From contig CAUJNA010003804.1 in assembly GCA_963377175.1 (NCBI GenBank), forward strand, positions 102,501 through 166,500: a DNA stretch of 64,000 nucleotides, in the 5' to 3' direction. This document shows, one piece after another, positions 1,596-23,077 of this stretch; the stretch's first letter is position 1; each line of letters begins with the position of its first letter. A program made the position numbers and the translations under genes. The notes beneath the pieces were generated by a model. That model made no database searches and was not told where the DNA came from. It saw only the letters and a program-made list of their open reading frames with translations. This DNA is from Effrenium voratum (Eukaryota; Sar; Dinophyceae; Suessiales; Symbiodiniaceae).

Positions 1596-1600
1596 GTTAG
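1596..1600. repeat. Left target-site duplication GTTAG
   Basis: GTTAG directly precedes the first base of the left inverted repeat and is found again directly after the right one at 23073-23077. Five to six base duplications are expected of rve-type integrases in polintons and PLVs. Confidence 0.85.
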
Positions 1601-1734
1601 AGCAAGAAGGACCTTACCCACAACCTCATCTCTTACTACCCTCCCCGCGCCACACCAGCATATAATCAAACCACTCGCCAAAATCTATATAAAATGCTTC
1701 AAGTTATTCATTTTACAGAATAACTTAAACCATT

Positions 1735-2262
1735 TCAATCAACCTCGCAACATTTATTGATATGTCCTTCACTTGATACATGGTCGCACCAAGAATAATA
1801 AATTTCTTTCTTCTTACATTTCAAACATCTAAACCACAACACGCCATTTACAATTTCTTTACTATCCGGTCGTTCCAATTTTTCACCGTTCAAACTTTTC
1901 TGTAAAAAATATTGATGGTTTAAAGATTTCTCGTGTTGAGACTTCTTACCTTTTTTAACTTCATAATCGCACAATTCGCAATAGTGAACCTGTTGCCGGT
2001 TTGCTTGTATTGTTGCTTTCCCTGCTTCGCTCTCTCTGTATTTCCTGTTCTTTTCCTGTACTCTGTCAGGGTGGTTCTCTCTGTATCTGCGTTGCTTCTC
2101 CCATACTTTTTCAGGATTGTTAATTCTCCATTGTCTTTTGGTTTCCTCTCTCTTCAATCTGTTTTGTTCTCGGCAGTAATCACAAAGTTTAATCATATTC
2201 TTAAACAAATCAGAAGAATATGTAGTATCACATTGCTTACATTTTTTCATATCGTCTTTCAT
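1735..2262 (-). CDS. TIR-borne zinc-finger protein (left copy)
   Basis: A 175-residue protein. It starts with a CxxC...CxxC zinc motif (CKQC near residue 8, CDYC near 27), as in many phage and giant-virus proteins. A charged helical repeat follows, with NPEKV and NHPDRV units about 14 residues apart. Then come a C2H2 finger (CELCDYEV...H...H, near residues 95-118) and a last Cys/His cluster (CLKC...C..H...H..CC). The likely role is nucleic-acid binding, but the function is unknown. The gene at 22411-22938 is its diverged twin in the other TIR: the C-terminal 80 residues are almost identical and the N-terminal half is much less so. A TTTAAAGAAATG box lies about 20 bases upstream, matching other presumed early genes. 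Confidence 0.85.
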   Translation of the reverse strand: MKDDMKKCKQCDTTYSSDLFKNMIKLCDYCREQNRLKREETKRQWRINNPEKVWEKQRRYRENHPDRVQEKNRKYRESEAGKATIQANRQQVHYCELCDYEVKKGKKSQHEKSLNHQYFLQKSLNGEKLERPDSKEIVNGVLWFRCLKCKKKEIYYSWCDHVSSEGHINKCCEVD

Positions 2263-2282
2263 CTCCTACCATAGTAAAAGAA

Positions 2283-2294
2283 CATTTCTTTAAA
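2283..2294 (-). promoter_or_regulatory. Putative early promoter box (left TIR gene)
   Basis: TTTAAAGAAATG on the minus strand, about 20 bases before the ATG at 2262 and preceded by AAAACCA. It is one of seven copies of this box in the element. Confidence 0.65.
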
Positions 2295-2501
2295 TGGTTT
2301 TAGGCATAATAAATATCAAGGTCTGGGTAAGCCACCTGTCCCGAAAAAAACCACCAAACAACAAACCAAACAAAAAACCAAACAAGGAACAACACAAAGA
2401 ACAATTACAAATATATTGAATAAACCTAATAATTTTATCTCATTAGAACTATTCATGACACGTACCGTATTCTGGATGAGTGTGAAAAAAGGGTTCGTTT
2501 T

Positions 2502-2610
2502 GGACACTGGGAGGGGGTCAGTGTGGACACTGGGAGGGGGTCAGTGTGGACACTGGGAGGGGGTCAGTGTGGACACTGGGAGGGGGTCAGTGTGGACACT
2601 GGGAGGGGGT
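2502..2610. repeat. 23-bp G-rich tandem repeat inside the virus
   Basis: Four complete copies and a fifth partial copy of a 23-base unit start at 2502, 2525, 2548, 2571 and 2594. Each unit holds GGGAGGGGG between the self-complementary arms ACACTG and CAGTGT. The copies are virtually identical, and the GC-rich composition contrasts with the AT-rich virus. It lies in the 465-base gap between the left TIR gene and the methyltransferase, where I see no gene. Confidence 0.95.
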
Positions 2611-2727
2611 TGTCTTCTTTTAAAATTCATTATTTTCAAAATTTTAAGTTTCATAATTTTTACTCTTTTTGTCGTTGGACGAACCTGCAAATTTCAAGTT
2701 TCAACACCAACCCCAAACTCGTTTTCC

Positions 2728-3342
2728 TTAATCCACCAAACTCACCAAGATTTCACAAATCAATTCAGCAGGGATTTTGTATAAATCTTCTTGCTTATGC
2801 TTTACATAATTCTCGCCCCAATTTTCCCGCTTTCCACTTGGTGCCCGTTGCGCAGTTTCAATATGTTTGTTATTAACAACTTTACCACAGTCTTTTTTAC
2901 ATAATGGTCTCGCTTTCCAGTTTGTTAGATTGTTCCACAACCTAGTTCGTTTCCTGTAATTAAATCCATATTTGCAATAGTCAATGTCATTAAACCTTAA
3001 CCCATCCATAAAAGACTGACTTTTCAATAATCCAGTCTGTGGATTTTCAATTACATAATATTTTGGATTGAAATATTCAATAATCTCTATTGTTTTTAAT
3101 ACAATACTATTAGCATATTCAATGTTTCTTATTCCTGTTCTTTTTGCAATACTGTATTCTGTGCAAGGTGGTGATGCCCAAATAAATTGAAAATGATTTC
3201 TGTCAAACTGCTTATAATCCCATTCAAGTATATCACAATTAATATCAGCATTTTTCAAATCCAACGATATTACATTAAAACCGAGCGACTTTGCAATAAG
3301 TCCAACACTGCCTGTCCCACTAAACATCTCTAATAAATTCAT
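2728..3342 (-). CDS. C5-cytosine methyltransferase-like protein (viral)
   Basis: A 204-residue protein with a compact version of the DNA cytosine-5 methyltransferase core. The cofactor loop MFSGTGSVG lies at residues 6-14, the catalytic-loop motif SPPC at 57-60 (with the expected nucleophile Cys60) and the ENP version of the ENV motif at 99-101. YRKRTRLW near residue 130 resembles the later conserved R-rich motif. It is shorter than a full bacterial C5 enzyme (over 300 residues), and a target-recognition domain is not evident. Similar small methylases occur in phages and virophages. A role in modifying viral DNA is plausible, but activity is unproven. No early box precedes it. Confidence 0.8.
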   Translation of the reverse strand: MNLLEMFSGTGSVGLIAKSLGFNVISLDLKNADINCDILEWDYKQFDRNHFQFIWASPPCTEYSIAKRTGIRNIEYANSIVLKTIEIIEYFNPKYYVIENPQTGLLKSQSFMDGLRFNDIDYCKYGFNYRKRTRLWNNLTNWKARPLCKKDCGKVVNNKHIETAQRAPSGKRENWGENYVKHKQEDLYKIPAELICEILVSLVD

Positions 3343-3371
3343 TTATTAGAATGATTTAGATATTTATTATA

Positions 3372-3695
3372 TTAATCCATAAGTTTATATTCATCACCAT
3401 CTTTCGCGATTTTATAGTATTCTAAAGTTTGTTCTTTTGGGTTCTTAATGCGCCCGTTGGACACCATCTCAAAATAAGATTGTCTTTTAGTTTCATGGTC
3501 GCCTGAGGGACGCCCTAATCCTTTCTTTTGAAAGATTTTATCCATCTTCTCCTTATCGTCTTCGTTATTGCTTTTAGGTTGGTTTATTTTTTCATCGATA
3601 TTCTTAATAAGTTCAGTTAATGTTTTAATATTCTTACTAATAATTATAATCTTTTTCATTAAATCATTAATTGTAAAACTTTCATTTTCTGACAT
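3372..3695 (-). CDS. Hypothetical viral protein with coiled coil
   Basis: 107 residues. The first half (about 10-45) is a probable amphipathic helix or coiled coil (NDLMKKIIIISKNIKTLTEL). It is followed by a charged linker and a GLGRPSG motif. The protein is not recognised. It lies 29 bases from the methyltransferase start on the same strand, with an AT-rich leader typical of this element. Confidence 0.65.
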   Translation of the reverse strand: MSENESFTINDLMKKIIIISKNIKTLTELIKNIDEKINQPKSNNEDDKEKMDKIFQKKGLGRPSGDHETKRQSYFEMVSNGRIKNPKEQTLEYYKIAKDGDEYKLMD

Positions 3696-3782
3696 TTCTA
3701 TATATAAACATTTATATAATTATTTATTTATTTATTTATGCGTTTGAAGTGGTGTTAAATCTACTCCTTAAATACTAATATT

Positions 3783-4052
3783 TCAGCATTCTTTCTCAGG
3801 TGTAAATAACCTACCAAATCCACTTTTGAAGTTTTCTACCCAACTTTCTTCAACTGTGCTCCCGTCGGCATCTTTCTTTTTTACTGTATGTACTGTATGC
3901 ATGGTTCTACCACATGAACACGGCCAACATTTAACTTTAACATGTTCTTTATCTAATTCTAATTCATTTAATGGTTTAATTGTTTGACCGCATTTTTCGC
4001 ATTTGACACATTCAATCTCTTTTTGTTTCTCTTGCTTCTTCTTTGGAGGCAT
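3783..4052 (-). CDS. Small zinc-ribbon protein
   Basis: 89 residues with a lysine-rich start (MPPKKKQEKQKE), then CVKCEKCGQTI and CWPCSCGRTMH, which together form a probable zinc ribbon of paired Cys motifs around residues 15-50. No family is recognised. The start overlaps the end of the upstream gene (4012-4218) by 41 bases in another frame, as in compact viral genomes. Confidence 0.65.
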   Translation of the reverse strand: MPPKKKQEKQKEIECVKCEKCGQTIKPLNELELDKEHVKVKCWPCSCGRTMHTVHTVKKKDADGSTVEESWVENFKSGFGRLFTPEKEC

Positions 4053-4218
4053 TTATATTAATATTTACATTTTTATTTTTGATATATTGAATTCCTAACT
4101 TAATTATTTCTAAAACAAAATAGCATACTTTCTTACATTTATTGTCAGTTATCATTACTTGTTCTATATTTTCTACTTCATCTATTATATCAATATAATC
4201 TGTATAACTTCTTTGCAT
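4012..4218 (-). CDS. Hypothetical small viral protein
   Basis: 68 residues, with an acidic N-terminus and a hydrophobic centre (CYFVLEIIKLGIQYI) that could be an amphipathic helix. It begins with ATG at the edge of the divergent intergenic region facing the ATPase gene. Its 3' end overlaps the next gene. No homology is recognised, so it could be a chance frame. Confidence 0.45.
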   Translation of the reverse strand: MQRSYTDYIDIIDEVENIEQVMITDNKCKKVCYFVLEIIKLGIQYIKNKNVNININASKEEARETKRD

Positions 4219-4474
4219 ATTAAATAATAAGATAAATTATTCTAATTAATCTTATTATTTCATGCATAATAGAATATTGATGGGGCACAGCACTTGGAGT
4301 TTTCATTGCAATTCTTCAAACTAATTATCTTCAATGCTTATTGATTGAAGCAATGGAAAACCTGTTCCATTTTATGATATTCGCCACCAGCATATCATAA
4401 AAATGATGTTCCATTTAATATTAATTACAAGTTAATTTTTAAATATAATTTTCTATATTTCTTTAATATCAACT
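4219..4474. promoter_or_regulatory. Divergent intergenic region with two hairpins
   Basis: This 256-base gap separates a minus-strand gene from the plus-strand ATPase gene and is the longest relatively GC-containing spacer in the virion half. It holds a perfect 11-bp hairpin (arms 4370-4380 and 4392-4402, loop TCGCCACCAGC). Just before it is a 7-bp hairpin, CTTCAAT/ATTGAAG (about 4330-4351), inside a longer imperfect inverted repeat, TTTTCATTGC/GCAATGGAAAA. It may be a bidirectional promoter or a structured RNA. No early box is present. Confidence 0.5.
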
Positions 4475-5239
4475 ATGACAGATGTCCCAATAATAAAACC
4501 AATAAACATAACTGATTATGAATTCAAACAATCTAAATATGAGCACGTGCCAAAACTACCATTTAGAAGTATTATAGTTGCGAGTTCGACAGGCGGCAAA
4601 ACAGTTTTAGTTCAGAATCTTATTTTAAATGTTTATAGAAATTCATTTGCAAGAATATTTATATTTTCACCCAGCGTTCATAATGACCCAACTTTTACAG
4701 AAGTAAAGAAATATATTAGGGATGAACTACATGTAGATGATGAAAAAGAACAAATTTATTTTGATAATTATAATCCAAGTGATTTAGAAAATGTAATCGA
4801 AAGACAGAAGAAAATTATTAACTATATGAAATCTAAAAAGATAAAGAAACTGCACTCAATATTAATCGTTATAGATGACCACGCCGACGACCCTAAATTT
4901 GTTAGATATAGTAAATTATTACATGGATTGTTTACAAGAGGCAGGCACGATGCAGTAAGCGTAATTTGTTCAACACAGAAATATAATGTGTTGGCGCCTA
5001 TCATTCGTTTAAATGCCAGTTCATTATATATTTTTAGGTTGAAAAATGCCAGTGAATTAATGAGTTTTATTGAAGAAAATAGCGCCATTGTTGATAAACA
5101 GCAATTATTAGATATGTATCATCAAGCAGTTAATGACGCACCTTATAGTTTCTTCTACGTGAATATGAATGCTAAAGACATTAACAAAATGTTTCATATC
5201 AGATTTGAACAGGCATTTCAAATTACGAATGATGAATAA
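4475..5239 (+). CDS. A32/FtsK-HerA type DNA packaging ATPase
   Basis: A 254-residue P-loop ATPase of the family that drives genome packaging in PLVs, virophages and nucleocytoplasmic large DNA viruses. Walker A is SSTGGKT at residues 37-43. Walker B is ILIVIDD, ending near residue 135, followed by HADD. The downstream region ICSTQKYNVLAP carries the polar sensor expected of this family. The length fits the usual 220-280 residues. It would act at the capsid portal or vertex. The gene is intact and starts with ATG after an AT-rich leader. Confidence 0.93.
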   Translation: MTDVPIIKPINITDYEFKQSKYEHVPKLPFRSIIVASSTGGKTVLVQNLILNVYRNSFARIFIFSPSVHNDPTFTEVKKYIRDELHVDDEKEQIYFDNYNPSDLENVIERQKKIINYMKSKKIKKLHSILIVIDDHADDPKFVRYSKLLHGLFTRGRHDAVSVICSTQKYNVLAPIIRLNASSLYIFRLKNASELMSFIEENSAIVDKQQLLDMYHQAVNDAPYSFFYVNMNAKDINKMFHIRFEQAFQITNDE

Positions 5240-5269
5240 AGATATTCTAATTTAATATAATATAATAAT

Positions 5270-5503
5270 ATGCCAATGAAACTATGTAGATGTGGTGGAT
5301 TTTATCGTAGAGGTAATTATAATTTTCATACTAATTCTTGGATACATAAACTTTATATAGTGTTAAAAAGACGACCAACAGACGAGGAATTATTAAGATT
5401 TCAAAATAATTTTGTTGATGAAGAAGATTTAATAGATGATATGTGTAGCAATGCCTCAACAAAATTACCCGAAAGTGAAATGACGGATTATGATAGTAAT
5501 TAA
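5270..5503 (+). CDS. Small Cys/His protein, acidic C-terminus
   Basis: 77 residues. CRCGGFY followed by H and H (residues 6-26) could hold one zinc ion. RRPTDEELLRF comes next, then an acidic tail. It lies 30 bases after the ATPase on the same strand, and its stop codon overlaps the start of a perfect hairpin. The function is unknown. Confidence 0.65.
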   Translation: MPMKLCRCGGFYRRGNYNFHTNSWIHKLYIVLKRRPTDEELLRFQNNFVDEEDLIDDMCSNASTKLPESEMTDYDSN

Positions 5504-5528: not shown

Positions 5529-5532
5529 CAAT

Positions 5533-7947: not shown

Positions 7948-9528
7948 TTAATCGTAAAGAATGCTCCCGCTTTCCCTTAATTCCAGAACAGACTCCGAAA
8001 TCATATGCACAAATAATTCTCGCACATCTTCATCAGTTGTTAGTGCTCTGTTACTTCCTTTTAGTTTAAAAACGAGTAAACCACCCATTTTAGTATTCTG
8101 TCCAGTAAAATTAGTGTCTGCCATTTTCTCAAACGATATACCAATAACGAACTTGTCTTCTCTGTAGCGCTTGTAGGAAATACTAAAGGCATCTTGGTCA
8201 GGGTTCAAATAGTGTAATGTTCTTCGGAGGTAGTAGGCACTCTCGGCGAGGCTCTGGCATTCAAACTCTGGATATTTCTTATTATTAATTTGTAATTGCC
8301 ACGTTAAATTTAAATCTTTATCTTGAAAGCCTTTACCTTGGAAACGCTCGCGATCAGTGCCATCAGGGTCAGGACCATCAAAAATACGAGAATTAATCAT
8401 AGGATTGTAAAAATAGTTCCATCTCTTATAAATATAATTATCGTGTCTGTAGTAGTTATTATTATCAGCATCTGCACCTGCTCTTGGTGGGCGATACAAT
8501 GTAATGAAACAACCATTTAATTTTGAAGCGGATTTAACAATATTCATATTAATTTCAGTTCCTGCCGCGTTGAATGATTGTGTCATAGTGTGATACATTG
8601 GAAATACTAATTTCAAACTTTGACCCTCTAACAAATGTTTCACTATATTATTATTGACCGTGTTGTCCAATTGTATTACCTCAGCTCTAATGATTACGTT
8701 ATTCAATTCCCACTGTGTTGAGGTGTCTCCTGGTGTGAAATAATAACCTTTGGCATCATTTTGAGTGTTGGCATCGGTTACGGTAAAAGGCGTAACTACT
8801 GGTATATGTTCATCTGATACAATTGTAAATTCCAGTTCAAGTGGAGCATAACGAAGAGGTAAATAATAATTGCTTTCTAACAATCCGCATACTGGTTTAT
8901 GCCCTAATCTCATATAACTGCCACCAGGAATTCCTGCTACTGAATGGCGAGTATATCGTGCTGTTAAATCTCCCCAATTGTTATGGTCTCGTGTAGTTGG
9001 AAATGTTGTTGCCACAGGGGAGGCAGCGGGATCAGTTCTTTTATTGACATCTAACATTTCTGCCAGTCCAGTAGCATAAGTATGTCGCCAGTCATCATCC
9101 CAACGAGGATTAGCCCCACCTTCTAAATCGTCCATATCTCGGGCATCTTGACTTTTAAAAGAATTATACGTTTCACAGTGCCTATTGTATTCAATAATAT
9201 CCTGAGCTTGCTGACCCCCAACCGTGCATCTATAACGACTGAAGAAGGATGATAAATTACCTAACGGTCGTAAAAAATGACTTCGTGTTCCGTCAGTGTT
9301 TTGAAGATTAGCAAATAAACGAATAGAAGATAAATCAATATATGTGTTGTCTTCTCCTGATATATGAAATCTAATATTCTTGTTTCCTGCATTTGGATTA
9401 TAGACATTGCTACCTGATGGAAAATAATTAACGTGTCGTCGGTCTGTGATATATTGTGCTGTTTCTGGAAGTCCAAAATTTAATGAGTTAATCATTGTAG
9501 TTTCTGATTCTGCAATTATATTATCCAT
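7948..9528 (-). CDS. MCP: Major capsid protein, double jelly-roll, PLV type
   Basis: A 526-residue protein that would form the pseudo-hexameric capsomers of an icosahedral shell. The N-terminal pattern NYFPSGSNVYNP (residues 34-45), followed by IRFHISGEDNTYIDLSSIRL, is the recognisable opening strand region of PLV major capsid proteins. LPLRYAPLELEFTI (about residue 225-240) lies in the first jelly roll. The length is normal for the family. The frame is intact. Its ATG overlaps the stop codon of the upstream lysine-rich gene (TAATG), so the two are probably expressed together. No early box is seen, consistent with late expression. Confidence 0.93.
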   Translation of the reverse strand: MDNIIAESETTMINSLNFGLPETAQYITDRRHVNYFPSGSNVYNPNAGNKNIRFHISGEDNTYIDLSSIRLFANLQNTDGTRSHFLRPLGNLSSFFSRYRCTVGGQQAQDIIEYNRHCETYNSFKSQDARDMDDLEGGANPRWDDDWRHTYATGLAEMLDVNKRTDPAASPVATTFPTTRDHNNWGDLTARYTRHSVAGIPGGSYMRLGHKPVCGLLESNYYLPLRYAPLELEFTIVSDEHIPVVTPFTVTDANTQNDAKGYYFTPGDTSTQWELNNVIIRAEVIQLDNTVNNNIVKHLLEGQSLKLVFPMYHTMTQSFNAAGTEINMNIVKSASKLNGCFITLYRPPRAGADADNNNYYRHDNYIYKRWNYFYNPMINSRIFDGPDPDGTDRERFQGKGFQDKDLNLTWQLQINNKKYPEFECQSLAESAYYLRRTLHYLNPDQDAFSISYKRYREDKFVIGISFEKMADTNFTGQNTKMGGLLVFKLKGSNRALTTDEDVRELFVHMISESVLELRESGSILYD

Positions 9529-9838: not shown

Positions 9839-10618
9839 TTAACCCGAATTATCATTCGGGTTGAACCCATTAGAAATATCAGTAGTAGGATTAATTTCAG
9901 TCATACCTTGTCCTGTCCAATTATTGAAACTGTGTTTATCTAATAAATTGTTGCTTTCTATTTCTCCAGTTATTGCCGCGTCATCGAACATTGCTATAGG
10001 ATCTCCGCGATTTCTAAATCGTAAGTATCGCGGGTTTTTCTGTTGATTACTTCCTGATACAAAAGGTGATGAATAAACAGTAGTAGCATATTTGTTGCCG
10101 TGTCTGTTGTTGATTTCTTGTGCAACAGCCGAGCCGAGGGAATGGGACACAATTCTAGTAACATCTGGATTTTTACTTAATTCTTCCATTGCGTCTTTAT
10201 ATCTTTCGCTTAATTGAACATTATGAGTAGGAATAAAAAACAAATCTGCGATTACATCATTGACTTTGTGATTTAGTCCCGTTTTAGCACCAGTACCGCC
10301 AATATATAATGTGTTGCCTATTTTTGTTATTCCATTTACATTAGAATAGGCCGCGTCTAAACCCTTGACATCATCGATTTTATTTTTATTTTGAACATTG
10401 ATTTCTTCAGCATAGCGTGTTTTATGTTTCATTATCTGTTTATCAAAATGTTTATTGAAACCTCCTATTTTGTCTTCCAATGTCTTTTTATGATTAAAAA
10501 ATACATCTTCTAATAAATCCTTACCTGCTGTATATGCTTTATCGCTTGCTACACCTGCCATTATTTGTGTCGGTGTCCTGCCTGCAATAGCACCTAATAA
10601 TAATTGTCTTCCTATCAT
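9839..10618 (-). CDS. Lipase-like alpha/beta hydrolase
   Basis: 259 residues from the ATG at 10618; a longer frame exists only with a TTG start. The nucleophile elbow SHSLGSA (Ser about 160) matches the GxSxG-like GHSLGG motif of class 3 lipases. RFRNRGDPIAMFDD supplies the likely catalytic Asp (about 206), and DKHSFNNW the His (about 229). The N-terminus is mildly hydrophobic (LLLGAIAG). Lipase-like genes are known in PLVs and may help entry or exit through membranes. The gene sits next to the capsid genes, diverging from the penton gene. Confidence 0.8.
   Translation of the reverse strand: MIGRQLLLGAIAGRTPTQIMAGVASDKAYTAGKDLLEDVFFNHKKTLEDKIGGFNKHFDKQIMKHKTRYAEEINVQNKNKIDDVKGLDAAYSNVNGITKIGNTLYIGGTGAKTGLNHKVNDVIADLFFIPTHNVQLSERYKDAMEELSKNPDVTRIVSHSLGSAVAQEINNRHGNKYATTVYSSPFVSGSNQQKNPRYLRFRNRGDPIAMFDDAAITGEIESNNLLDKHSFNNWTGQGMTEINPTTDISNGFNPNDNSG
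9841..9862. terminator. Hairpin over the lipase stop codon
   Basis: AACCCGAAT, loop TATC, ATTCGGGTT: a perfect 9-bp stem with GC pairs. It covers the last codons and the stop of the lipase gene (stop at 9839-9841). It is a good candidate for a hairpin-type transcript end. Confidence 0.6.
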
Positions 10619-10719: not shown

Positions 10720-11575
10720 ATGAGTGATAGGTTAACGTATAAAAAAATCTATGTTGATAGTGCCTACAGATTACCAGAAAGTAATTCTACCAGCGATTTT
10801 ATTATAGAACTTGACCAAAACTTTGAAATTCCACCAAGAACAAAAATGTTCGTGACAGAGTGTTCATTCAGCACTCCGTTTTATACAACAGAGAAGGGTT
10901 TTTATGAAAGATTCTATATTATGTTGTATAATAGTTCCAATGTCTTATTGAGAAGCACTGCCGTTGATGTATCCGGTGAAATTTATTATGCTAATCAATT
11001 ATCATACAAAATACAAACGGAATTAAACACGGCATTTAATGATATTGTACCTGACTTATTCTTAACAGTATATGGACAAAGCGAGCGCAAAATGGAACTT
11101 AAATTAAATGACCCTCTAAATTACAAAATCAAAATACCTACAGATGAAGAATTAGAAACTTATGTAAATGGCGAATGGAACAGAGGGACAGTTTGAATAT
11201 GACAACTTGAGACCAAAAGCTATCAATTATTTATTAAGTAATTATATTGCCTATGAACCTGCGTCATCTTGGTTAAGTGGATATTTTAATTTAGTTCCTT
11301 TTCAGAATATATACATAAATTGTCCTCAATTAAGCGATTATAAATATTCAGCGCCTAATAATTTCAGCAGTTCAGTAATTAAAAAAGTTCAAATCAATCA
11401 ACAACTTGGCGGAGTTATAACAGATTTTACAGCGCCCATATATGCAGATTTTATTGATGTAGGCGGTAAAAATATTAAGAGACTACACTTTAGAATAACA
11501 ACTTCAAGAAACGAATTAATTGATTTTCACGGCGTACCCATTTCTTTTAGCATTCTCTTTCAATTAGATAATTGA
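10720..11575 (+). pseudogene. Penton (minor capsid) protein, frameshifted
   Basis: The first part (10720-11196) begins with ATG and carries YKKIYVDSAYRLPESNSTSDF and IPPRTKMFVTECSFS. These are the typical opening of PLV and virophage single jelly-roll penton proteins, which form capsid vertices. The second part (11168-11575) continues the fold in another frame, ending RLHFRITTSRNEL...ISFSILFQL. The frames exchange near 11170-11196. The whole span of about 285 codons matches the usual penton length, so a single indel seems to have broken one gene. It may be decay or a sequence error. Confidence 0.82.
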
Positions 11576-12288: not shown

Positions 12289-14512
12289 ATGTTTTCAACA
12301 TTATCACTGGACGGCTCAAACAGAATTATAGCAAGTGAGTTAGTATTAATAAATTCAACAGAACCATCAACTCTAAGCAGTGTTTATGCTACAAAGCAAG
12401 AATTAGCAGATACAGCAGGTTCATTAGGCGGAGGTTATACAATTGAAGAAGTTGATGCTCTTATTTTAGCACAGAAAAATAAGATAGATGCCAATATTTT
12501 AGATATTACTGAATTAAACGCAACATCAACAACAATGTTTGACGAACAAGTAAATCAAAACACAACAATTACAAGCAACTTTAATAATATAACAGCACAC
12601 GGATTAACCATAACTTCAATACTACCGACTATATCAGCAAATACAATTAAACTTGATTCTAATTTTAATAATATTAGTTCAAATAGTTCACTAATAACAG
12701 GACACAATAATACATTAGCATCACATTTAGTAGTATTAACAACACATGATAGCAACATCGCAACAAATACAAATGGAATAGCAATATTAAATAACACTGT
12801 AGGCAGTAATATGATATTTGTTAATAGCCATCAAAACACTGTTACCTCTCATATATCATTAATTGACACAAATATTAATAACATATCAGGACATGGAAAC
12901 ACAATAACAACCATTCTTACAGATATAGCAGATTTACAAGCAGGCGCGGGTGCTTCTTGGACTACAACTGAAAAAACAACTATTCAAGCAGATGTATCAA
13001 CATTATATACAAATGATACTAATTTATTCAATACAAATACCGCATACAGTAATACATTTGCCTCAATCATATCAGACAACACGACACAAGATTTATTAAT
13101 AACTCAAAATTCAAATACGATAATAGTTTAATATCAGCAGATTTACAAAAGTTAGATAAAACAATCACAACTGCCCAAACAATGAACTCGCCATTAATAC
13201 TTAGTTTAACCGATACAACTAATCCTATATTTAGAATTCAAGATTCTGTAAGTAATCAACGTTTAGAATTTAAAAGAGGTTGTCAGTTGGACTCTTATCA
13301 AGGTTTAACAGGTGCTACAGCTTATAGATTATGGCTAGGATGGAATACGGGAGATGTTATTATTGGAAGACCTAATAATGCTTCAAGAATTACAATTAAT
13401 GGTAATGTTCATACTTCATACAATTTTGCTCAAGCACATGGAACATCATATTTTGAAGGTGCTGTTTATATGAAAGGAAATTTATTTACAAATAATGATT
13501 TTTCAACAGATATTAAAACTAAAATTGATAATTTAGACAATGCATTAACTCCATATTTAGAAACACACACCCCATCAGCAACTCAAGGTTTTTATGTTCA
13601 TCATCCTAATTTTGTTGCTTGTAGTATTGGCGATATTACAAATTCTTCTAACCAATATTTTATGTGCGACGGTGCAGTATCCAAAACCATTTTCAATAAA
13701 GCAGTTGATGTATTGGGCGATGTATATACAAATGGCGATTTAACAATGGTTTCTGGTAAGAAAGTTGAAGTCAACCAAGTTCAGTCAGTATCAGGAAATA
13801 CTTTATTATTACAAAATTCACCGAGTGGCAATGTTCAATTTGGCAACACATCAAAACTAATAATTGATAATGCTGAAATGTATGTCGATACAAATGATTT
13901 AATAATTAGGAATAGCAACACTTCAAACTCTATTAATTTGGTTGTTGGATTATCTACAACATATGCTGATAATAAAATTATTTTGAATAGTGGAAGTAAT
14001 AGCGAATTACGAGGCGACTGGACTATTGACGGTGACATGACTTTTGGAATTGCTCATAAAATCAATTTGAGACATTTAAATAGTGATGCTGTGTTAAGAT
14101 TAGAAGCATCAACAACTATTGATAGTTACATTGATGGCACTAAATATTTACAATTGGATGATACTCAATTTTCATCATTTAATGGATTTAATTTAAGTAG
14201 TGATAAGAGACTGAAAGATAATATAGAAGATGTAGAAGATGACACTATAAATATGGTAAAAAACATTAAGATTAAAACATTTGTTAAAAATCAAAAAACT
14301 AAAAAACTGAATTAGGATGGATTGCTCAAGATGTTCAACAATACACAAATCCTAAATATAATATTGTAAATGATTCGGGAGAATACTTAACAATGTGTTA
14401 TGACAGAATGGCTTGTATTAGTTGGGATGCTTTATCAAAACTAATCCATCGTGTAGAATATTTGGAAAACGAAGTCTTTAAAAATAAAAATAAAAAAGAA
14501 AAGTCTAAATAA
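12289..14512 (+). pseudogene. Fibre/spike protein with S74-type chaperone end, two frameshifts
   Basis: About 740 codons in three frames that follow each other without gaps. The N-terminal part (to about 13131) has tandem 20-25 residue repeats rich in N, T, S and I (ISGHGNTITTILTDI-like units), typical of trimeric coiled fibres. The middle (13182-14315) is rich in beta-type repeats. The end reads SSDKRLKDNIEDV and, after a second shift, LGWIAQDVQQY and ISWDALSKLI. This is the signature of the S74 intramolecular chaperone of phage tail spikes and giant-virus fibres, which self-cleaves after trimerisation. Indels lie near 13111-13121 and in twin A6 runs at 14293-14306. Confidence 0.82.
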
Positions 14513-15026: not shown

Positions 15027-18000
15027 ATGACTAAAAAACTTATCCAACAATATACCCAGAACTTGAGAACTACAAGAGATAGTAAAATTGGCAAAGTCCC
15101 GCCGGATATACAAGCAAAAATCAATAAAATAGTTGATTTGTATGAAGACCGCAAGATTTCACAATATGAAACGGCAAATAAATTGATAAATGACATCAGC
15201 ATCAATGATACAAAGAAACGAAAATCAGGATTGAAGATATATGATAAAGCAGTGGCAAAGTACGAAGAAGCAGAACCCATAACCGAAAGAATGGCAGAGA
15301 CAGCAAAGAAAGCAAGGACAGCAAAGGAAGTTAAAGCAGTAATTAAAAAACACGACAAGCAACCCATCTTTAAAAGAAAAGCAATATCAGGATTAACAAC
15401 AAAGGCAAAGGATATTTTCAAGAACAGGAAGACTTATGATGTAAAATTTATGCTGTTTTCAGTTGCTAATAGAGACGAAATAAAGAAACCATCATTTATA
15501 TTAGATGGCATATCATATTATCCTATATTACTGAAAGCATCAGGGAAGCAAAGAGCATTGGGCGAGGCGAATGTCAAAGCAAATCAGTTTATAGAAACAG
15601 TAGTAAGTAGAAAGATTAGAAAATATCATAAGGATGAAAAGGGACTGTATAAAAGGGTAATGCTGTTGATGAACACCAGTAGCGAATTTGATGATATAGG
15701 GCATCTTGTGGAATACGCTAACGCCATTAGAATTGAAAGCGTTGAACTGGTTGAAACTGACACCTCAAACTACGATGAAAGAGAACAATCACTGAGGGAA
15801 AGTCAGAATATAAGCATCTATTATAGATACATCCAGACTGAAGTTGACGCCGATGCTTTAACAATAAAAGAAGCATTACAAAAGAAGGAATATAAAGATA
15901 ACGAATGTTGGATAAATGCTTTACTTGAAAACTTTGAAGGGACAGACCTATTGAGAGAGAGGCGACAACAAAAGAACACCAAAACCCTGACGCGTGGCAA
16001 AGTGCTTGAACTGCTGGAAATGACAGAAGAAGAGTTTATCAACAATGGAGCATCCATAAACCAAATGGATAAAGTCTTTCAATTCTTCAATATTCCGGCC
16101 AGACTTTATAACTTTACAGGAGGTTTAATTTATCAACATAATCCCAAAGACTACGAAAAGGGAAGAGTTAAAATGTTCAGAGGATTAGTTAAGAATAACC
16201 ATATTTATTTGTTAAACCATGATTTAAACACATTAAGGCAAATGCAAGCAAACGAGGAAGGATTTAAAGCACCAACTACAAGCAGATTTTATATTACTGA
16301 CAGGAATGAACCTATTAAGTATAAAATGTTTGATGATGTAGATGATTTGTTAAAAATGCGGGATGAAGAAGAATATGCCTTAATACATTCTGACAATGAT
16401 ATGGTAAAAGTATTTTTTCAACTCAACGAAGCAGGATACAAACCCTACATTAAATATGGCAATTCCGGACAAATTGCTAATATTATGTGTAAGTTTTATT
16501 ACAAAAAACTCAAAAAATACATTAAATATAATATTGTATCACAGAGTTTATCAAAAGATAGGATTGATGAAGATGTGGCGGTTGATGATGAAGACACATA
16601 TAATAATATTGTTAGTGCTATGTTCCGATTTCAAAAGGACATGTTTAAGGAAATCCACTTATCATATTACAATGAAGTTGATATTAAGATATTGAAGGAG
16701 TGTAAAACTATTGTCCCTGTTGGGAGGTTTCATGACACGAATGTTAAGATTAAAAAGTTGAGGGAGATTGACATTAGAAAGGCATTTACTTTTGGCGGGT
16801 GCTGTATCAAATACATCCCGAGATTTACAGAGTTTGATGTTTTTAAACCTTTCGCTGATTGTGATATTAATAGTTTTAATAATCTAACTTTATACATTGT
16901 AGAAGTCTATGAAGGAAACATATTTTTTAACAAGAAATATAATCTGATTTACGGTAAGTTTTTAAAGCAGTTGTTAAAGCGTGATATTAAGTTGAAGATA
17001 TTATATTACAAACAACCTAATCATGTTTATAAAGTTAATTACAAGAAAATAATTGATGAACTCTATTCTACAAACATATCAAGCAATGAAGATTTAAATA
17101 AGCAACTACAAAAGAAAGTAGCAAACATAAGCATCGGTATGCTGGAAAAATCGCATAACACATCACAGAAAAGTAGCACATTTAACTCATTGAGAGAGGC
17201 GTGTTATTATCAAAAGTTGAATCCAAACAGCAAAATCTATACAATCGGTCAGTACCAAACAGAATTAGAAGAATTAGAAGATGATGAAATGAGAGTAAAG
17301 GATACAGAAGGCACCGCGTATTATGTATTGAATGTGTCAGATAAAAAAGTATTGAGCAACGGTTTTACATACATCAAAGAGCTTTTGCTACAATACCATA
17401 ATTTCAAAATGTATGAAACATATAAAACATTAACTGATAATAATATTAAAGTATATAGTGTTAAAACAGATAGCATAACTATCCACGAAGACGATTTGGA
17501 TAAAGTTTATGGATATACTTATTTGAGAAAATGGCGGGAAGGACTGCTGAAATTTGGTGATGAGATAGGCGACTGGAGACTTGAAGAGAAGCACACTATA
17601 ACATTACCAACTCAACCATATAAGTATAAGTTTAATGAATTACCTGAAATACCGAAGATTAAGAATATTAATATTTCTATTGAAGATGAATGGAATACTG
17701 AAAGCATTTGTAAAAAAGTTATTAAACAAAATCCAGTAATTATTAGGGGTAAATTTCCGGGCACAGGCAAGAGTTATATAGGTCAGCATTTCCAAAAGAT
17801 GAATAAGAATGTATTATTTGTAGTGCCTACCAACCGACAACTACAAGAAATACAAGATAAAGGAATAGAAGCAACAACATATAACAAGTTTTTTAGCATT
17901 GCCGTTCATGAAGATGTCGGAGAGAAATTACCAATTTATGATTATTCGCCTTATGATGTAATAGTGTTTGATGAGATTTATATGTTGAATTTTATACACT

Positions 18001-19050
18001 TTGAATAAAGTTTGGCAGTTTATGGAAAACAACACTCATATTATCAGAATTGCTACTGGTGATGTAAAACAATTAGAAGGGGTGGAAACCATGACAAACT
18101 GCCAAGACCCCGCAACATACATTGACAACTGTATAGACACAATGTTTAAATATAATATTTTCTTAAAAATATGTAAGAGAGTAGGAGCAAAGGACAGCGT
18201 AGAAGGAGAAAGAAACAGAAAAATATTAAATGATATGTATAATGACTGGTGGGAAAACAACATTCCACGCAAAGAGTTTATACTTAAATACAGTTATTTA
18301 ACCGATGACATCATGGCATCAGAGCATAATATCGCTTATACCAATATGAGATGCGAAAATGTAGCAAATGAGATTAGAGACAGATTAAACATAAGTGAGA
18401 AATATGTAGTGGGTGATATTTTGGTTTCCAGAACATGGATTAAACAACCAAGGGTTAATATCAATTTGAGATACAGGATTACAAAGATAGAAGATGATGA
18501 ATTAGGGAAGCAAATAACATTACAGAATATAGCAAGACAAGAAGATGAGTTTATGTTGTCTGAACCTATTGTAGATAAAAACTTCATCTATCCTTACTGT
18601 GCTACTTGTCATTCAAGCCAGGGGTCAAGCGTAAAGGAAAGCATAACTATTCACGAATGGGACTTACCCATAACCAGCAGAGAGTGGATATGGACGGCAT
18701 TGACTCGCTGTGTTGATTTTAGGAAAGTTAAATTTTATTGTAATCCAGACTTTGATAAGCAAATGGATAAAAATATGATAATGAGATATTTTAAAAACAA
18801 AGTAGAAAATTATAAGATACAAGACCGTCGCGCTCAAAGAGAAATTAATGAGGAAGAATACATTAGTGCTGAATGGTGTTTATCACAGTTTCGCGCCAGA
18901 TGCCAAAAGTGTAATACTTCATTTAACTTTGAAACGAAGAAAGGTAAATTATGTAGCAATTTTACTTGTCAGCGCCTTGATAATTCAATCGCTCACCATA
19001 TAGATAATTCAACTTCATTCTGTGTATATTGTAATGTTTCAGCTCATTAA
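15027..19050 (+). pseudogene. Family B DNA polymerase fused to SF1 helicase, one frameshift
   Basis: About 1,340 codons. The N-terminal region (about 290-410) contains NECWINALLENF and NNHIYLLNHDLNTL, a block I associate with PLV-type polymerases. Polymerase motif A is EIDIRKAFT (Asp about 582) and motif C is VKTDSIT (about 814-819). A helicase follows: Walker A GKFPGTGKS (about 907-917), Walker B VIVFDE, GDVKQL, THxxQG-like CHSSQGSS and WTALTRC, as in RecD/Pif1-type SF1 enzymes. The tail (from about 18880) has several CxxC pairs. The frame breaks just after Walker B, at a T4 run (17990-17993), and resumes at once. This would be the replicative enzyme of the element. An early box precedes it. 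Confidence 0.87.
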
Positions 19051-19098
19051 GATTTTAATATTTTTTATATTAAAATCTTAGTTTTAGACTAAAAAAGG

Positions 19099-19110: not shown

Positions 19111-19133
19111 ATACCTATATATAGTAGAGAGTA

Positions 19134-19673
19134 ATGAAGGAACAAGAAGTAAATAATTATATCAATAAGAAATGCTATGACTGTTGCCACTTCAAAAAAG
19201 AACATATGGAATTATACAAAATGAATTTACCTAATGGAATAGTTAATAATATTATTGATTATGCTGTGGACGAACAAAATTGTAAAATTTGTAAAAATTG
19301 GAGGTTTTATCAAGAATTAATCAAATGTCATTTGAACCATAAAAGGTTTCTTAAAACAAATGTTGAAGATGACATTATAATATTTTTAACTGTGTATGAA
19401 AGACCACGTTATAGTTATGTTAGAATATTTCTCAAAATCGGTAAGAAAAAGTATGAAATGATTAACCACATATTATGGATGTTGTTGCATCGTAGGAGAG
19501 ACGGGTCTGATTTAAAAGGAGACATTAAATCATATATTGAAAGCAACAAGTTTAATGTGAAAAATACCGTGAGAGATATCAATATTATTTTTGAACTGAT
19601 GCATGACAGACGTAAGATATATACACAATTTAATAATCATCAATTAACTTATTATCCTGAATTTAAATTATAA
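19134..19673 (+). CDS. Hypothetical Cys-rich early-type protein
   Basis: 179 residues. CYDCCHFKKEH near residue 14 and CKICKNW near 50 flank LPNGIVNNIIDYA, so the N-terminal third may bind zinc around an F-box-like helix. The rest is helical and basic. The layout resembles the 21408-22139 protein (Cys pairs, LPxxII helix, CKKC), suggesting distant paralogues behind the same promoter. The function is unknown. Confidence 0.7.
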   Translation: MKEQEVNNYINKKCYDCCHFKKEHMELYKMNLPNGIVNNIIDYAVDEQNCKICKNWRFYQELIKCHLNHKRFLKTNVEDDIIIFLTVYERPRYSYVRIFLKIGKKKYEMINHILWMLLHRRRDGSDLKGDIKSYIESNKFNVKNTVRDINIIFELMHDRRKIYTQFNNHQLTYYPEFKL

Positions 19674-19685
19674 ATAATATTATCA

Positions 19686-19711
19686 ATATAATAAATCTTA
19701 ATTTATTATAT
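19686..19711. promoter_or_regulatory. Perfect 11-bp hairpin at the integrase start
   Basis: ATATAATAAAT, loop CTTA, ATTTATTATAT. The right arm runs into the integrase ATG (19710). It occupies the gap after the 19134-19673 gene and resembles the hairpin before the fibre gene. Confidence 0.5.
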
Positions 19712-20624
19712 GGATAAACAAAAAATAATTAGTGATATTTACTATGACAAAAGCGGATACGGTAGTAAAGGAATAACTTTGAAAGATGCCAGACAGAAAG
19801 ATAAAACTATTACTGCGGACGATGTTAATGAGTTCTTTAAAAAGAATGTTGAGGAAAAAAGGAAAATGCGAGGGCAGAATAGTTTTGTTGCTCCTCATGC
19901 CTTCTGGGAATTTCAGTTAGATTTGTTCTTTATTTCAAAAAATGATTTGGAAAATCAAAAGTTTAGAATTGGATTAATATTAATTGATATATTTAGTAAA
20001 TATGCTACTGTAATACCTATTGCAAGTAAGCAACCGCCAGACGTATTAGCAGGAATAATGGAAGGCATTAAGAAAATGGGCGGAAAACCCAAAATGATAT
20101 ACAGCGACGAAGAAGGCAGTTTGTTTAGTTCTACCATTACAGATTATCTTGATGAGGAAAAAATTGAATTACACACCACGAGAGGCCACCCTGCTTTTGG
20201 AGAAAGATTTATTAGAACCTACAAAGATATGCTTTTTAAAAGAGTTGATGCGGATGAAAAGAAAGGTAAAAACAATATACAATGGATAGATTACAATTTA
20301 GAAATATTATTGACATATAATAATAAATTAGTAAGTTCCGTTACGAAAATGACACCATTAGAAGCAAGGAAGAAAAAGAATGAGTTTGAGGTGAAACTGA
20401 ATATATCAATGAATGCCAGAAAAACCCGTGTGTATCCTGATTTAGATGTAGGGGACAAAGTCAAGATAATGAGAAAGAAAGCGATTAGCGAGAAAGAGAG
20501 AACCAGTCATTATTTGAAAACTATTCACACCGTAACTAAAACAGAAACAAAGTTAGGGCAGAAATATTATTCTGTTAGTGATTTTCCTAAACCTCTATTG
20601 CGACATGAAATGTTGAAATTATAG
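19710..20624 (+). CDS. DDE (rve) integrase
   Basis: A 304-residue retroviral-type integrase that would insert the element and produce the GTTAG duplication. The RNase H-fold core runs from about 60 to 210. The catalytic acidic residues are Asp71 (FQLDLFF), Asp133 (IYSDEEGS) and Glu165 (AFGERFI). LIDIFSKYATVIPI and TPLEARKKK are typical strand and helix signatures. The C-terminus holds an SH3-like VGDKVKIMRKK segment. A classical N-terminal zinc finger is not seen. The frame is intact. Unlike its neighbours it lacks the early box, though it could be cotranscribed from 19099. Confidence 0.93.
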   Translation: MDKQKIISDIYYDKSGYGSKGITLKDARQKDKTITADDVNEFFKKNVEEKRKMRGQNSFVAPHAFWEFQLDLFFISKNDLENQKFRIGLILIDIFSKYATVIPIASKQPPDVLAGIMEGIKKMGGKPKMIYSDEEGSLFSSTITDYLDEEKIELHTTRGHPAFGERFIRTYKDMLFKRVDADEKKGKNNIQWIDYNLEILLTYNNKLVSSVTKMTPLEARKKKNEFEVKLNISMNARKTRVYPDLDVGDKVKIMRKKAISEKERTSHYLKTIHTVTKTETKLGQKYYSVSDFPKPLLRHEMLKL

Positions 20625-20640
20625 CTTTAGACTAAAAAGG

Positions 20641-20652
20641 TTTAAAGAAATA
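20641..20652 (+). promoter_or_regulatory. Putative early promoter box (20678 gene)
   Basis: TTTAAAGAAATA inside the extended motif TTTAGACTAAAAAGG...ATGCCTATATATATTAG. The motif starts directly behind the integrase stop codon, with the ATG 26 bases after the box. Confidence 0.75.
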
Positions 20653-20677
20653 ATGCCTATATATATTAGTGATAAAT

Positions 20678-21145
20678 ATGGTTATATTTACAGAGGTTGA
20701 ACAGGAAGAAATTATCAATGAATTCTTAACTTGTAGTGAACAACAGGAAACTAAAATAATTGATGAGTTTTTGAGTGATAATGATAATAAAACAGAAGAA
20801 GAAGATGACAGTTACGGATTTGTAACTGAAAAACGGTTAGAAAAGGAAGTTACAGAACATCATAAAATGATAAACAATATTGAAACGAAAAATTACATCC
20901 CATTAAAACATGCAATGATAAAATATATGGAACAAACCAACAACCAACGAATAATTAGAAATGCTGGAAACTATTCATACAGTCAAAAGACATCCAATTG
21001 CTGGTATTTAAGCTTTAGAGAATTTGAATGGTTAATCGAAATAAAAAAGAATGGCAACAAATGGATTTGTAGCAAAGAAAAATTAGATGCAGTTGATTTT
21101 AACATATTGTATAAATATAAAATGTTTGAAAGAAGATTTGAATAA
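20678..21145 (+). CDS. Hypothetical acidic early-type protein
   Basis: 155 residues from the ATG at 20678; a GTG nine bases earlier is in frame but less likely. The N-terminal half is very acidic (EVEQEEIINEFL, DNDNKTEEEDD). The C-terminal half is a small basic/aromatic domain (SNCWYLSFREFEWLIEIKK). The protein is not recognised. Confidence 0.65.
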   Translation: MVIFTEVEQEEIINEFLTCSEQQETKIIDEFLSDNDNKTEEEDDSYGFVTEKRLEKEVTEHHKMINNIETKNYIPLKHAMIKYMEQTNNQRIIRNAGNYSYSQKTSNCWYLSFREFEWLIEIKKNGNKWICSKEKLDAVDFNILYKYKMFERRFE

Positions 21146-21407
21146 TTATAAAAACGAATGAACCAGACCTTGCCCATAATATTTCTACAAAATTTGTGAT
21201 AAAATTTATTGTAAAATAATTTATCATAATTGTTGGAATAATATTTTTTGAAAATTTTGTAAAACTATATTTTCTAAAATTTATATTTTAAAATTTATAT
21301 TTTAAAATATGGATGAACTTACTAGGAAATTACCTGCTTTGAAATGTTGAAATTATAGTTTTAGACTAAAAAGGTTTAAAGAAATAATACCTATATATAT
21401 TAGTAAG
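21146..21407. repeat. Spacer with a duplicated integrase tail and promoter
   Basis: The last part (about 21338-21400) repeats the end of the integrase gene (GAAATGTTGAAATTATAG) together with the following promoter (TTTAGACTAAAAAGGTTTAA). It looks like a partial copy of 20605-20665 that now serves the 21408 gene. The remainder (21146-21335) is AT-rich, with AAAATTTATATTTTAAAAT repeats and no gene. Confidence 0.75.
21375..21386 (+). promoter_or_regulatory. Putative early promoter box (21408 gene)
   Basis: TTTAAAGAAATA followed by ATACCTATATATATTAG, 22 bases before the ATG. It is almost identical over 40 bases to the copies at 19099 and 20641. Confidence 0.75.
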
Positions 21408-22139
21408 ATGATGAGCGATACAGAAAGTGAGAATGATATGTATAAAATTGAAACCTTTGATGATTTAGAAACAGCAAAACAACAAGTATTAAGTAATTAT
21501 GTGTGTAAATGTTGCGATGTTTATTTTTGTAAAGATTGTGCTAAAACAAATGCCAGATTAAAAATGTCATCAAAATCATTACCTATTGATATTATACAGA
21601 ACATTTCAAATAATATCAGATGTAAGAAATGTGAAGAAATGATATGTATAATAAAACACCGAACACGATATGGATATGACAATGACAACTTTGATTTATA
21701 TAGCATCAAATTAGCATATTATATTGATTTAAACGGTGATGATTTACCAACGATTGAAGACTTACAAAGCATACCGAAATTACAGCATTTAAGCAACATA
21801 CATTACAAAGTTTTGGTAATTTTATATTGGAACATCAACCATGAAAAACAATGGAAGCACTGGAAAAGAAACACCATGAATTATTTTTGGGATACAAACG
21901 GCGAAAGTATGGAAGATGCTTATGATGAGTTTAATGACTTGTTCAAAGAGTTGATTGACATTTTACATTATATTGACATGAATGAGGATAAGAGACATAA
22001 TATACTTTACGGTCATTGTTTTGGTATGGAAATTGCTGACAAATTAAATGAAGTTTTCTTCAATGAAGACAGTGAAACCGAAAGTGAAGGTGATGAGGTG
22101 AGAGAAGAATTTGAATATATAAGCGATTTCCAGTTGTAA
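21408..22139 (+). CDS. Hypothetical Cys-rich early-type protein
   Basis: 243 residues. CKCCDVYFCKDC (about 30-41) and CKKCEEMIC (about 70-78) flank SLPIDIIQNISNNI. This recalls the 19134-19673 protein and may be a zinc domain around an F-box-like helix. The rest is acidic and helical, with an acidic C-terminus. The function is unknown. Confidence 0.7.
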   Translation: MMSDTESENDMYKIETFDDLETAKQQVLSNYVCKCCDVYFCKDCAKTNARLKMSSKSLPIDIIQNISNNIRCKKCEEMICIIKHRTRYGYDNDNFDLYSIKLAYYIDLNGDDLPTIEDLQSIPKLQHLSNIHYKVLVILYWNINHEKQWKHWKRNTMNYFWDTNGESMEDAYDEFNDLFKELIDILHYIDMNEDKRHNILYGHCFGMEIADKLNEVFFNEDSETESEGDEVREEFEYISDFQL

Positions 22140-22378
22140 AGTTTTTGCTGGTGAAAAAATCCGATTTTGGTAATCTTTACTGTTTAATTATATTATCCTT
22201 AAATAATATAATTGAATACATACAATCCCGAGTGAGTTAATCTGTGAGTTGTTGGTGAGTGTTTTGTAATTGTCTATTGTATGGTTTGTTGTTTGGTTTT
22301 TTGTTTGGTTTGTTGTTTGGTGGTTTTTTTCTATGAGGGCCTTGCCCCTAAGCTCGTTATGGATTATGTCTAAAACCA

Positions 22379-22390
22379 TTTAAAGGAATG
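22379..22390 (+). promoter_or_regulatory. Putative early promoter box (right TIR gene)
   Basis: TTTAAAGGAATG preceded by GTCTAAAACCA, 20 bases before the ATG at 22411. One change from the left TIR copy. Confidence 0.6.
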
Positions 22391-22410
22391 ACGCCTTACT
22401 ATGGTAGAGG

Positions 22411-22938
22411 ATGAGTGAAGAAATGAAAACTTGTAAGCAATGTGGTAATACTTATTCTTCTGATTTGTTTAAGAATAGGATGAAACTTTGTAATTACTGC
22501 CGAGAACAAAATAAGATTAAGAATGATGAAAATAAAAAACAATGGAAATTGAATAATCCTGAGAAGGTGAAAGAATACAGACAAAAATATGAAGAAGATA
22601 ATATTGATGAAATTAAGGAAAGAAAAAAGAAATGGAGAGAGAGCGAGAAAGGAAAGGCAAAAATACAAGAATACCGGCAAAAAGTTCATTATTGCGAATT
22701 GTGCGATTATGAAGTTAAAAAAGGTAAGAAGTCTCAACACGAGAAATCTGGAAACCATCAATATTTTTTACAGAAAAGTTTGAATGGTGGAAAATTGGAA
22801 CGACCGGATAGTAAAGAAATTGTAAATGGCGTGTTGTGGTTTAGATGCTTGAAATGTAAGAAGAAAGAAATTTATTATGCTTGGTGCGACCATGTATCAA
22901 GCGAAAAACATATCAATAAATGTTGCGAGGTTGATTGA
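22411..22938 (+). CDS. TIR-borne zinc-finger protein (right copy)
   Basis: 175 residues, the twin of the left TIR gene. CKQCGNTY...CNYC opens the protein. A Lys/Glu-rich helical repeat (NNPEKVKEYRQKY) follows, then the C2H2 finger CELCDYEV and the final Cys/His cluster ending CCEVD. The last 80 residues are nearly the same as in the left copy, while the helical middle differs at many positions. Both copies are open. The role is probably DNA or RNA binding at the element ends or in regulation; not established. Confidence 0.85.
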   Translation: MSEEMKTCKQCGNTYSSDLFKNRMKLCNYCREQNKIKNDENKKQWKLNNPEKVKEYRQKYEEDNIDEIKERKKKWRESEKGKAKIQEYRQKVHYCELCDYEVKKGKKSQHEKSGNHQYFLQKSLNGGKLERPDSKEIVNGVLWFRCLKCKKKEIYYAWCDHVSSEKHINKCCEVD

Positions 22939-23072
22939 AATGGTTTAAGTTATTCTTTAAAATGAATAACTTGAAGCATTTTATATAGATTTTGGCGAGT
23001 GGTTTGATTATATGCTGGTGTGGCGCGGGGAGGGTAGTAAGAGATGAGGTTGTGGGTAAGGTCCTTCTTGCT

Positions 23073-23077
23073 GTTAG
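23073..23077. repeat. Right target-site duplication GTTAG
   Basis: GTTAG directly follows the right inverted repeat and matches 1596-1600. Both copies adjoin long G-runs, so the empty site was G-rich. Confidence 0.85.

Follow-up and report, generated by a model that had tools for sequence, protein, structure and literature searches.

A well-bounded provirus in Effrenium voratum related to dinoflagellate polinton-like viruses, and the apparent preference of its family for G or C runs

The stretch of DNA discussed here, hereafter called the window, comprises 64,000 nucleotides of the dinoflagellate Effrenium voratum (assembly GCA_963377175.1, contig CAUJNA010003804.1, positions 102,501 to 166,500) and lies within contig C3622 of the 1.156-Gb assembly of 3699 contigs that was searched for related sequences. 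It contains a provirus of 21,472 bp at positions 1601-23072, which is flanked by GTTAG at 1596-1600 and at 23073-23077. The provirus is very probably an endogenous polinton-like virus (PLV) of dinoflagellate type, with the mechanism of integration and multiplication proposed below. Its features are given in the following list, in which TIR, TSD, ORF and MCP stand for terminal inverted repeat, target-site duplication, open reading frame and major capsid protein, respectively.

1301-1600, + strand: left flank, a dispersed host repeat with a G run at its end (40 scored places of 1413 candidates)
1596-1600, no strand: left TSD, GTTAG, present as a single copy in the related empty site L080
1601-2411, + strand: left TIR, type A
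1735-2262, - strand: left copy of the TIR-borne ORF, directed outward, 175 aa, rich in Cys and His and by eye like a zinc finger; no Pfam match
2501-2610, no strand: perfect minisatellite, 4.8 copies of 23 bp, 90 bp inward of the left TIR
2728-3342, - strand: C5-cytosine DNA methyltransferase, 204 aa (PF00145, E 1.7e-7; phrog_757, E 2.4e-15)
4475-5239, + strand: A32-type genome-packaging ATPase (PF04665, E 6.8e-12; phrog_2666, E 1.2e-12; STIV B204, E 0.02)
7948-9528, - strand: MCP, 526 aa, double jelly roll
9839-10618, - strand: putative lipase/alpha-beta hydrolase (weak match to PF12146, E 0.015, under the cut-off)
10720-11196, + strand: putative minor capsid (penton) ORF, first piece, named from position and sequence style only
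11168-11575, + strand: second piece of the putative minor capsid ORF, in a different frame
12289-13131, + strand: fibre-like ORF (by eye); no significant Pfam match
13182-14315, + strand: fibre-like ORF with a C-terminal end like the S74 chaperone-peptidase (PF13884, E 0.0012, 19.5 bits, cut-off 22)
15027-18008, + strand: polymerase of the protein-primed PolB type followed by the start of an SF1 helicase, 993 aa
18022-19050, + strand: remaining part of the SF1 helicase, in a different frame (UvrD_C_2, E 0.0027, under the cut-off; phrog_325, E 9.8e-9; lengths of relatives)
19710-20624, + strand: rve (DDE) integrase, 304 aa (PF00665, E 8.6e-5, 23.2 bits, cut-off 32.6; solved integrases, E 0.02-0.06)
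22263-23072, - strand: right TIR, at informative sites type A at arm positions 8-41 (23032-23065) and type B at 166-704 (22369-22907)
22411-22938, + strand: right copy of the TIR-borne ORF, directed outward, 175 aa (phrog_2340 'endonuclease', E 2.9e-5)
23073-23077, no strand: right TSD, GTTAG
23078-23137, + strand: right flank, the final ~60 bp of the host repeat that also forms the left flank, with a G run at its start

The inverted arms pair in three blocks, i.e., 1601-2057 with 22616-23072 (457 nt, 94%), 2105-2327 with 22346-22568 (80%) and 2343-2411 with 22263-22331 (90%), and are identical over their outermost 114 bp. We judge an inverted repeat of ~811 bp to be far beyond chance. In 1-kb windows, the GC content is 0.544 in 1-1000, 0.25-0.38 across 2001-23000 and 0.504 in 23001-24000, corresponding to a drop from ~50% in the host to ~30% in the element. 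The inverted ends, the GTTAG on both sides and the sharp change in composition that had been noticed in the original prediction were thus all confirmed.

The borders were tested by comparing three copies of the host repeat in the 300-bp left flank, one of which is the window itself. In the copy at L080, the repeat is uninterrupted and runs through the G run and one GTTAG into the right-flank sequence, with 335 bp matching the joined flanks at 89%. The copy at L081 is also uninterrupted and lacks the TTAG. Both are paralogous, not allelic, empty sites. Since an uninterrupted paralogous host repeat with a single GTTAG exists elsewhere in the genome, the borders are real, and the element is indeed the well-bounded provirus that had been claimed. 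A single TSD on its own would be weak evidence for a border, and the TSDs across copies add to it. An exact 5-bp TSD is present in 13 of 15 two-ended copies of the genome (those of C831 and C241 lie inside a G/C homopolymer and are uninformative, and C147 duplicates the C1369 locus), one more has a single mismatch in five, and in the remaining copy, C2035, one end is not determinable. That a free virus or an unrelated viral contig was wrongly set in host sequence during assembly is extremely improbable. Such a mis-join would be helped by the G runs at both borders, which are hard to sequence, and the borders, like the genes, are known here from assembled sequence alone. However, the TSDs match, the flanks are continuous in the related empty copy L080 and uninterrupted also at L081, and TIR pairs with TSDs are found at other loci of the same genome.

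The gene set announced in the original prediction was recovered for the most part: MCP, packaging ATPase, rve integrase and PolB-helicase each found support, but the penton did not. The ATPase matches PF04665 (Pox_A32) with 45.8 bits against a cut-off of 22.8, as expected for an A32/FtsK-type packaging ATPase, and the structure model of the MCP is a double jelly roll, as in PLVs. The ~811-bp TIRs bound 21,472 bp, within the size range of 14-40 kb given for PLVs in PMC12220804. Two traits of polintons or Mavericks in the strict sense are present as well: the structure model of the polymerase is that of a phi29-type, protein-primed PolB, and the PF00665 match of the integrase, below its cut-off, is accompanied by the TSDs in 13 of the 15 copies.

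The double jelly roll and the A32-type ATPase are common to PLVs, virophages and giant viruses, and therefore such matches do not choose among these groups. The profile check proposed for MCP and ATPase had the same outcome: no PLV-specific capsid match came from the libraries used, the ATPase matched Pox_A32, and these matches fit PLVs, virophages and giant viruses alike. When searched by sequence against PDB, neither the MCP nor its profile (to E 1) gave a match; the MCP had no relative in the virus contig collection, and in PHROGs the MCP, the integrase and the polymerase ORF of 993 aa all stayed without a match. The assignment is instead supported by the size, the inverted ends, the rve integrase with TSD, the PolB-helicase and the sequence relatives in dinoflagellates. 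Among the 120 MCP relatives listed of 360, the named ones are three proteins with Skav gene labels, at 63-71% identity; we take these labels to denote S. kawagutii. It is highly unlikely that the element is rather a virophage, an animal-type Maverick/polinton or a fragment of a giant virus. Such groups share the rve integrase, the A32-type ATPase and the double-jelly-roll MCP, and giant-virus, mavirus and Sputnik MCPs all match the fold of the window MCP. The S. kawagutii-labelled relatives, the PolB-SF1 helicase gene and the inverted ends with TSD at 21 kb argue against this alternative and for a dinoflagellate-type PLV.

Several results weigh against this assignment and the interpretations built on it. 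The confidence of the MCP model is modest (pLDDT 57, pTM 0.58), and among solved folds, the giant-virus capsid proteins of PBCV-1 and ASFV score highest, above those of virophages. The rve, S74 and helicase matches of the window's own ORFs all fall under the curated cut-offs. Neither piece of the putative penton (10720-11575) matches Pfam, and the first has no PDB match by sequence. In the capsid comparison discussed below, the closest pair of MCP copies (dS 0.003) has a dN/dS of 1.06, and the copies were ranked by protein similarity, which biases dN downward.

In outline, the provirus is complete, but it is not intact. The original prediction that most genes are open stood overall, but the polymerase-helicase frame, which is joined in relatives as judged from their lengths (120 listed of 211), is split here into 993 and 342 aa, and the putative penton and the fibre stretch (12289-14315) each occupy two frames. 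The claim that the element is able to make virions probably fails for the present copy: with an interruption in its replication gene, or an assembly error at that position, this copy probably cannot multiply alone now. In the polymerase, the putative PolB motif C (residues ~810-815) reads Y-S-V-K-x-D across 30 aligned sequences, with the lysine in at least 90% of the rows; the usual PolB motif C carries D-T-D, and the position of its first aspartate is that of the lysine in this alignment. Among 20 ORFs, no Pfam match indicated a capsid maturation protease except for the S74 end of the fibre, and the search of the fibre ORF against PDB by sequence gave one chance-level match only. The putative lipase/alpha-beta hydrolase contains the stretch SHSLGSA, which we take to be a motif. 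For the TIR-borne ORF, 23 relatives were found, all without a name; a role in binding the element ends is a guess.

The MCP is present in many copies. With the window MCP as the query, 82 places were scored in the genome (81 besides the window) at 94-100% identity, which is a lower bound; the first look had given 4094 candidates. In 77 of the 82, the gene has no stop or frame break; four have one stop, and one is split. Some contigs repeat each other, e.g., C594 and C2778 share 1,500 identical flank bases, and the number of distinct insertions may therefore be smaller than that of MCP places. Among 27 copies (351 pairs), the median synonymous divergence (dS) was 0.28 and the median ratio of nonsynonymous to synonymous divergence (dN/dS) was 0.084; the latter is probably too low because of the similarity ranking. 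These 27 were taken from 30 fetched loci, with L014, L021 and L033 left out as they yielded no ORF by the rule of the script. In the listed pairs with a dS of 0.02-0.1, dN/dS ranged from 0.03 to 0.13. The low ratio indicates that the copies diverged mostly under purifying selection on the capsid, i.e., in lineages that were multiplying.

Some copies deviate in length. At C147:1095854-1108759 and C1194:26127-38960, the TIR pairs are only ~12.9 kb apart, like in internally deleted copies. The flanks (96-98%) and the TSD of the C147 copy are the same as those of a 21.6-kb copy in C1369, which suggests that the two represent a duplicated locus and that the C147 element has lost about 8.7 kb. At C57:26250-85905, a TIR pair is about 60 kb apart with a matching TSD, AACCT; possibly, this is one element with nested insertions.

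The sites of insertion were collected by a search with the left TIR, in which 40 ends were scored of 144 candidates. Seven were dropped, either for duplicated flanks (L042, L049, L050, L053 and L058) or as unsure ends (L070 and L071), leaving 33 ends at 20 sites. At positions -9/-8, i.e., 3-4 bp outside the 5-bp duplication, GG or CC is found in 30 of the 33 ends vs. 16% in the same flanks, and -8 and -9 are each G/C in 32 ends vs. 53% overall. Directly outside the duplication, GGGT is present in nine of the 33 ends (background 0.6%). A homopolymer of at least 7 within 15 bp outside the duplication occurs at eight of the 20 sites, against a mean of 0.36 and a maximum of 4 in 5000 permutations, and one of at least 4 at 15 sites, where 3.9 are expected. 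The permutations, with positions drawn from the same flanks, were done by site, because the two ends of one site are not independent. In the 12 sites without long runs, G/C is found at -8 and at -9 in 17 of 18 ends each.

Three of the insertions, those in the window, C594 and C3120, sit in the same G tract of what is apparently one host repeat. On the two sides of the insertion, the repeat match covers 229 bp (83%) and 61 bp (89%) in C594, and 65 bp (97%) and 28 bp (96%) in C3120. As the TSD in C3120 is different (GGGGT), that insertion is independent, and the one in C594 has the opposite orientation by the strand of its MCP, unless the interior was flipped between its repeats. When two of these three sites were dropped, the counts were six of the remaining 18 sites and 26 of the remaining 29 ends, which were reached in none of 5000 permutations.

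We attribute the G/C signature to the integration complex and, from the aligned flanks and not from a fitted model, we read the target as a palindrome, GGG(T)-N5-(A)CCC. It is reasonably probable that the integrase complex reads DNA, with GGG(T)-5 bp-(A)CCC-like sequences or poly-G/C as its targets, and that insertions are thereby steered, in a safe-harbour-like manner, into G tracts, among them the one in the dispersed host repeat that was hit at three loci, in either orientation. The alternative that the association does not reflect targeting, i.e., that the runs grew after insertion or that copies survive better in G-rich repeats or open chromatin, appears unlikely. It gains from the number of sites, 20 from one TIR search, three of them apparently in one host repeat, a limitation that also counts against our own interpretation, and from the uncertainty of homopolymer lengths in assemblies. 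On the other hand, related empty sites already carry the G run, and the signal is fixed at -8/-9, also where long runs are missing (12 sites), a precision to the base that neither survival nor chromatin would produce. In the open-licence literature searched, as far as available to us, no report of a G/C target preference for PLVs or virophages was found, and the choice of G/C runs by this provirus family may be new. If true, a sequence-based choice of sites, as suggested here from one genome, may be among the reasons why dinoflagellate chromosomes can tolerate copies in such numbers.

The right TIR is a patchwork of two repeat types with one sharp switch. It was typed at 131 sites where the types A (C1369) and B (C2313) differ. 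All 12 sites up to arm position 41 are of type A, those from 166 to 704 are without exception B, and those beyond, to 827, are mostly B with a few others. The left arm of the window is A. The other two-armed copies, 14 in all, each have two arms of a single type (six A/A, six B/B and two of other types), with C57 included, whose arms are 60 kb apart and may not belong to one element. The interior adjoining the right arm is 98.9% identical to C1369 over 1,130 bp, and inward of the left arm the identity to C1369 is 100% (180 bp), then 96% (419 bp) and then 88% (519 bp). A tract of over 500 bp was exchanged in one arm, either by a gain of B in the window or by its loss in C1369; the two elements do not tell these directions apart. 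The two TIR-borne ORFs differ with a dN/dS of 0.35, which would be expected had B evolved elsewhere under constraint.

The reverse course, with A/B arms already in the ancestor and a later homogenisation of C1369, or a simple decay of the arms after insertion, is conceivable, though somewhat less probable than not. Homogenisation of TIRs is expected for protein-primed linear genomes, and this, like the undecided direction, is in its favor. Of these two, only the decay is contradicted, by the 12 sites of type A at 8-41, the B at all sites in 166-704 and the adjacent interior that resembles C1369. The use of the arm difference as the age of the insertion was rejected: as the right arm is an A/B patchwork, the divergence between the arms is not a clock. 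TIR identity has been used as a sign of recent mobilization (PMC12220804), but it would mislead for this provirus. The usual clock, i.e., the divergence between the two TIRs of a copy, can therefore fail when single arms are rewritten by exchange.

Taken as a mechanism, the viral genome would have been linear with inverted ends, and the rve integrase would have inserted it at a staggered cut of 5 bp by joining it to both target strands. The cut would have been made inside the G run of the dispersed host repeat, giving the GTTAG seen at both borders. The complex would prefer GG/CC just outside the cut, as the statistics suggest, with a target for which GGG(T)-5 bp-(A)CCC or simple G/C tracts are the best reading, and with the integrase itself presumably reading the DNA. 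Judging from fold and family, replication may be performed by the protein-primed PolB with its fused SF1 helicase, and the A32-type ATPase may package the genome into a double-jelly-roll capsid. Between copies, parts of the inverted repeats would be exchanged one arm at a time.

The provirus adds to a known kind, as endogenous PLVs are already known in dinoflagellate genomes, where their MCPs number in the thousands in P. glacialis and a 'Dino' group of MCPs has been described (Bellas et al., 2023; PMC10120064), and a polinton of S. kawagutii, VSDK01003953.1:97440-118633, serves as a reference element (PMC12721341). The 'Dino' PLVs resemble the window provirus in host group, size (~21 kb), many MCP copies per genome and TIRs (PMC10120064; PMC12721341), and the rve/pPolB-type genes and the GC contrast are described for such elements generally. 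A target preference and a TIR patchwork are absent from the available parts of these descriptions, and VSDK01003953.1 was compared by description only. The PLV of P. glacialis shares the dinoflagellate host, the rve integrase and a 5-bp TSD (GTTAT), but it is 18.5 kb long, its TIRs measure 186 and 207 nt (89%), and it carries a 5S rRNA (PMC12220804). OmPLV of Oxyrrhis marina is likewise a dinoflagellate PLV of low GC with fused SF1 helicase and pPolB, but its helicase comes first and its polymerase last, and it has a tyrosine recombinase and no TSD, whereas the window provirus has the polymerase first, an rve integrase and a TSD (PMC12721341). An N-terminal PolB and a C-terminal helicase are found in the fusions of the Tlr1 element and transpovirions, which occur in other hosts and are without the exonuclease domain (PMC12721341). 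EMALE/mavirus elements in Cafeteria also have an rve integrase, TIRs and short TSDs; PMC8547959 reports no evidence for sequence-specific integration there, in contrast to the clear G/C signature of the window family. Maverick repeats are found around about 11% of the chromosome-domain boundaries in Breviolum (PMC11071213); further literature bears on the place among known elements (PMC13037468; PMC7805220). Within this group, the provirus represents a well-bounded dinoflagellate case with a related empty site in the same genome.

The host DNA of the window and the assembly gave some minor observations. The dinoflagellate spliced-leader pattern was not found in the window with up to three mismatches, which speaks neither for nor against the host. 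Of the 24 host frames of at least 200 aa, ten were run against Pfam; one matched only CCCH zinc-finger models and another gave one match under the cut-off. Strong rve matches in open frames of roughly 200-380 aa, several with an identical score, were seen on C1 (4.9 Mb), C2223 and C1647 (63 kb); these look like bacterial insertion sequences, and the assembly may therefore contain bacterial contigs. A tRNA-like match is present in host DNA at 52125-52214 (Rfam RF00005, 39.1 bits) that was not called by ARAGORN, and tandem arrays are found at 38668-40211 (period 320 bp, 4.8 copies) and 51129-51921 (193 bp, 4.1 copies).

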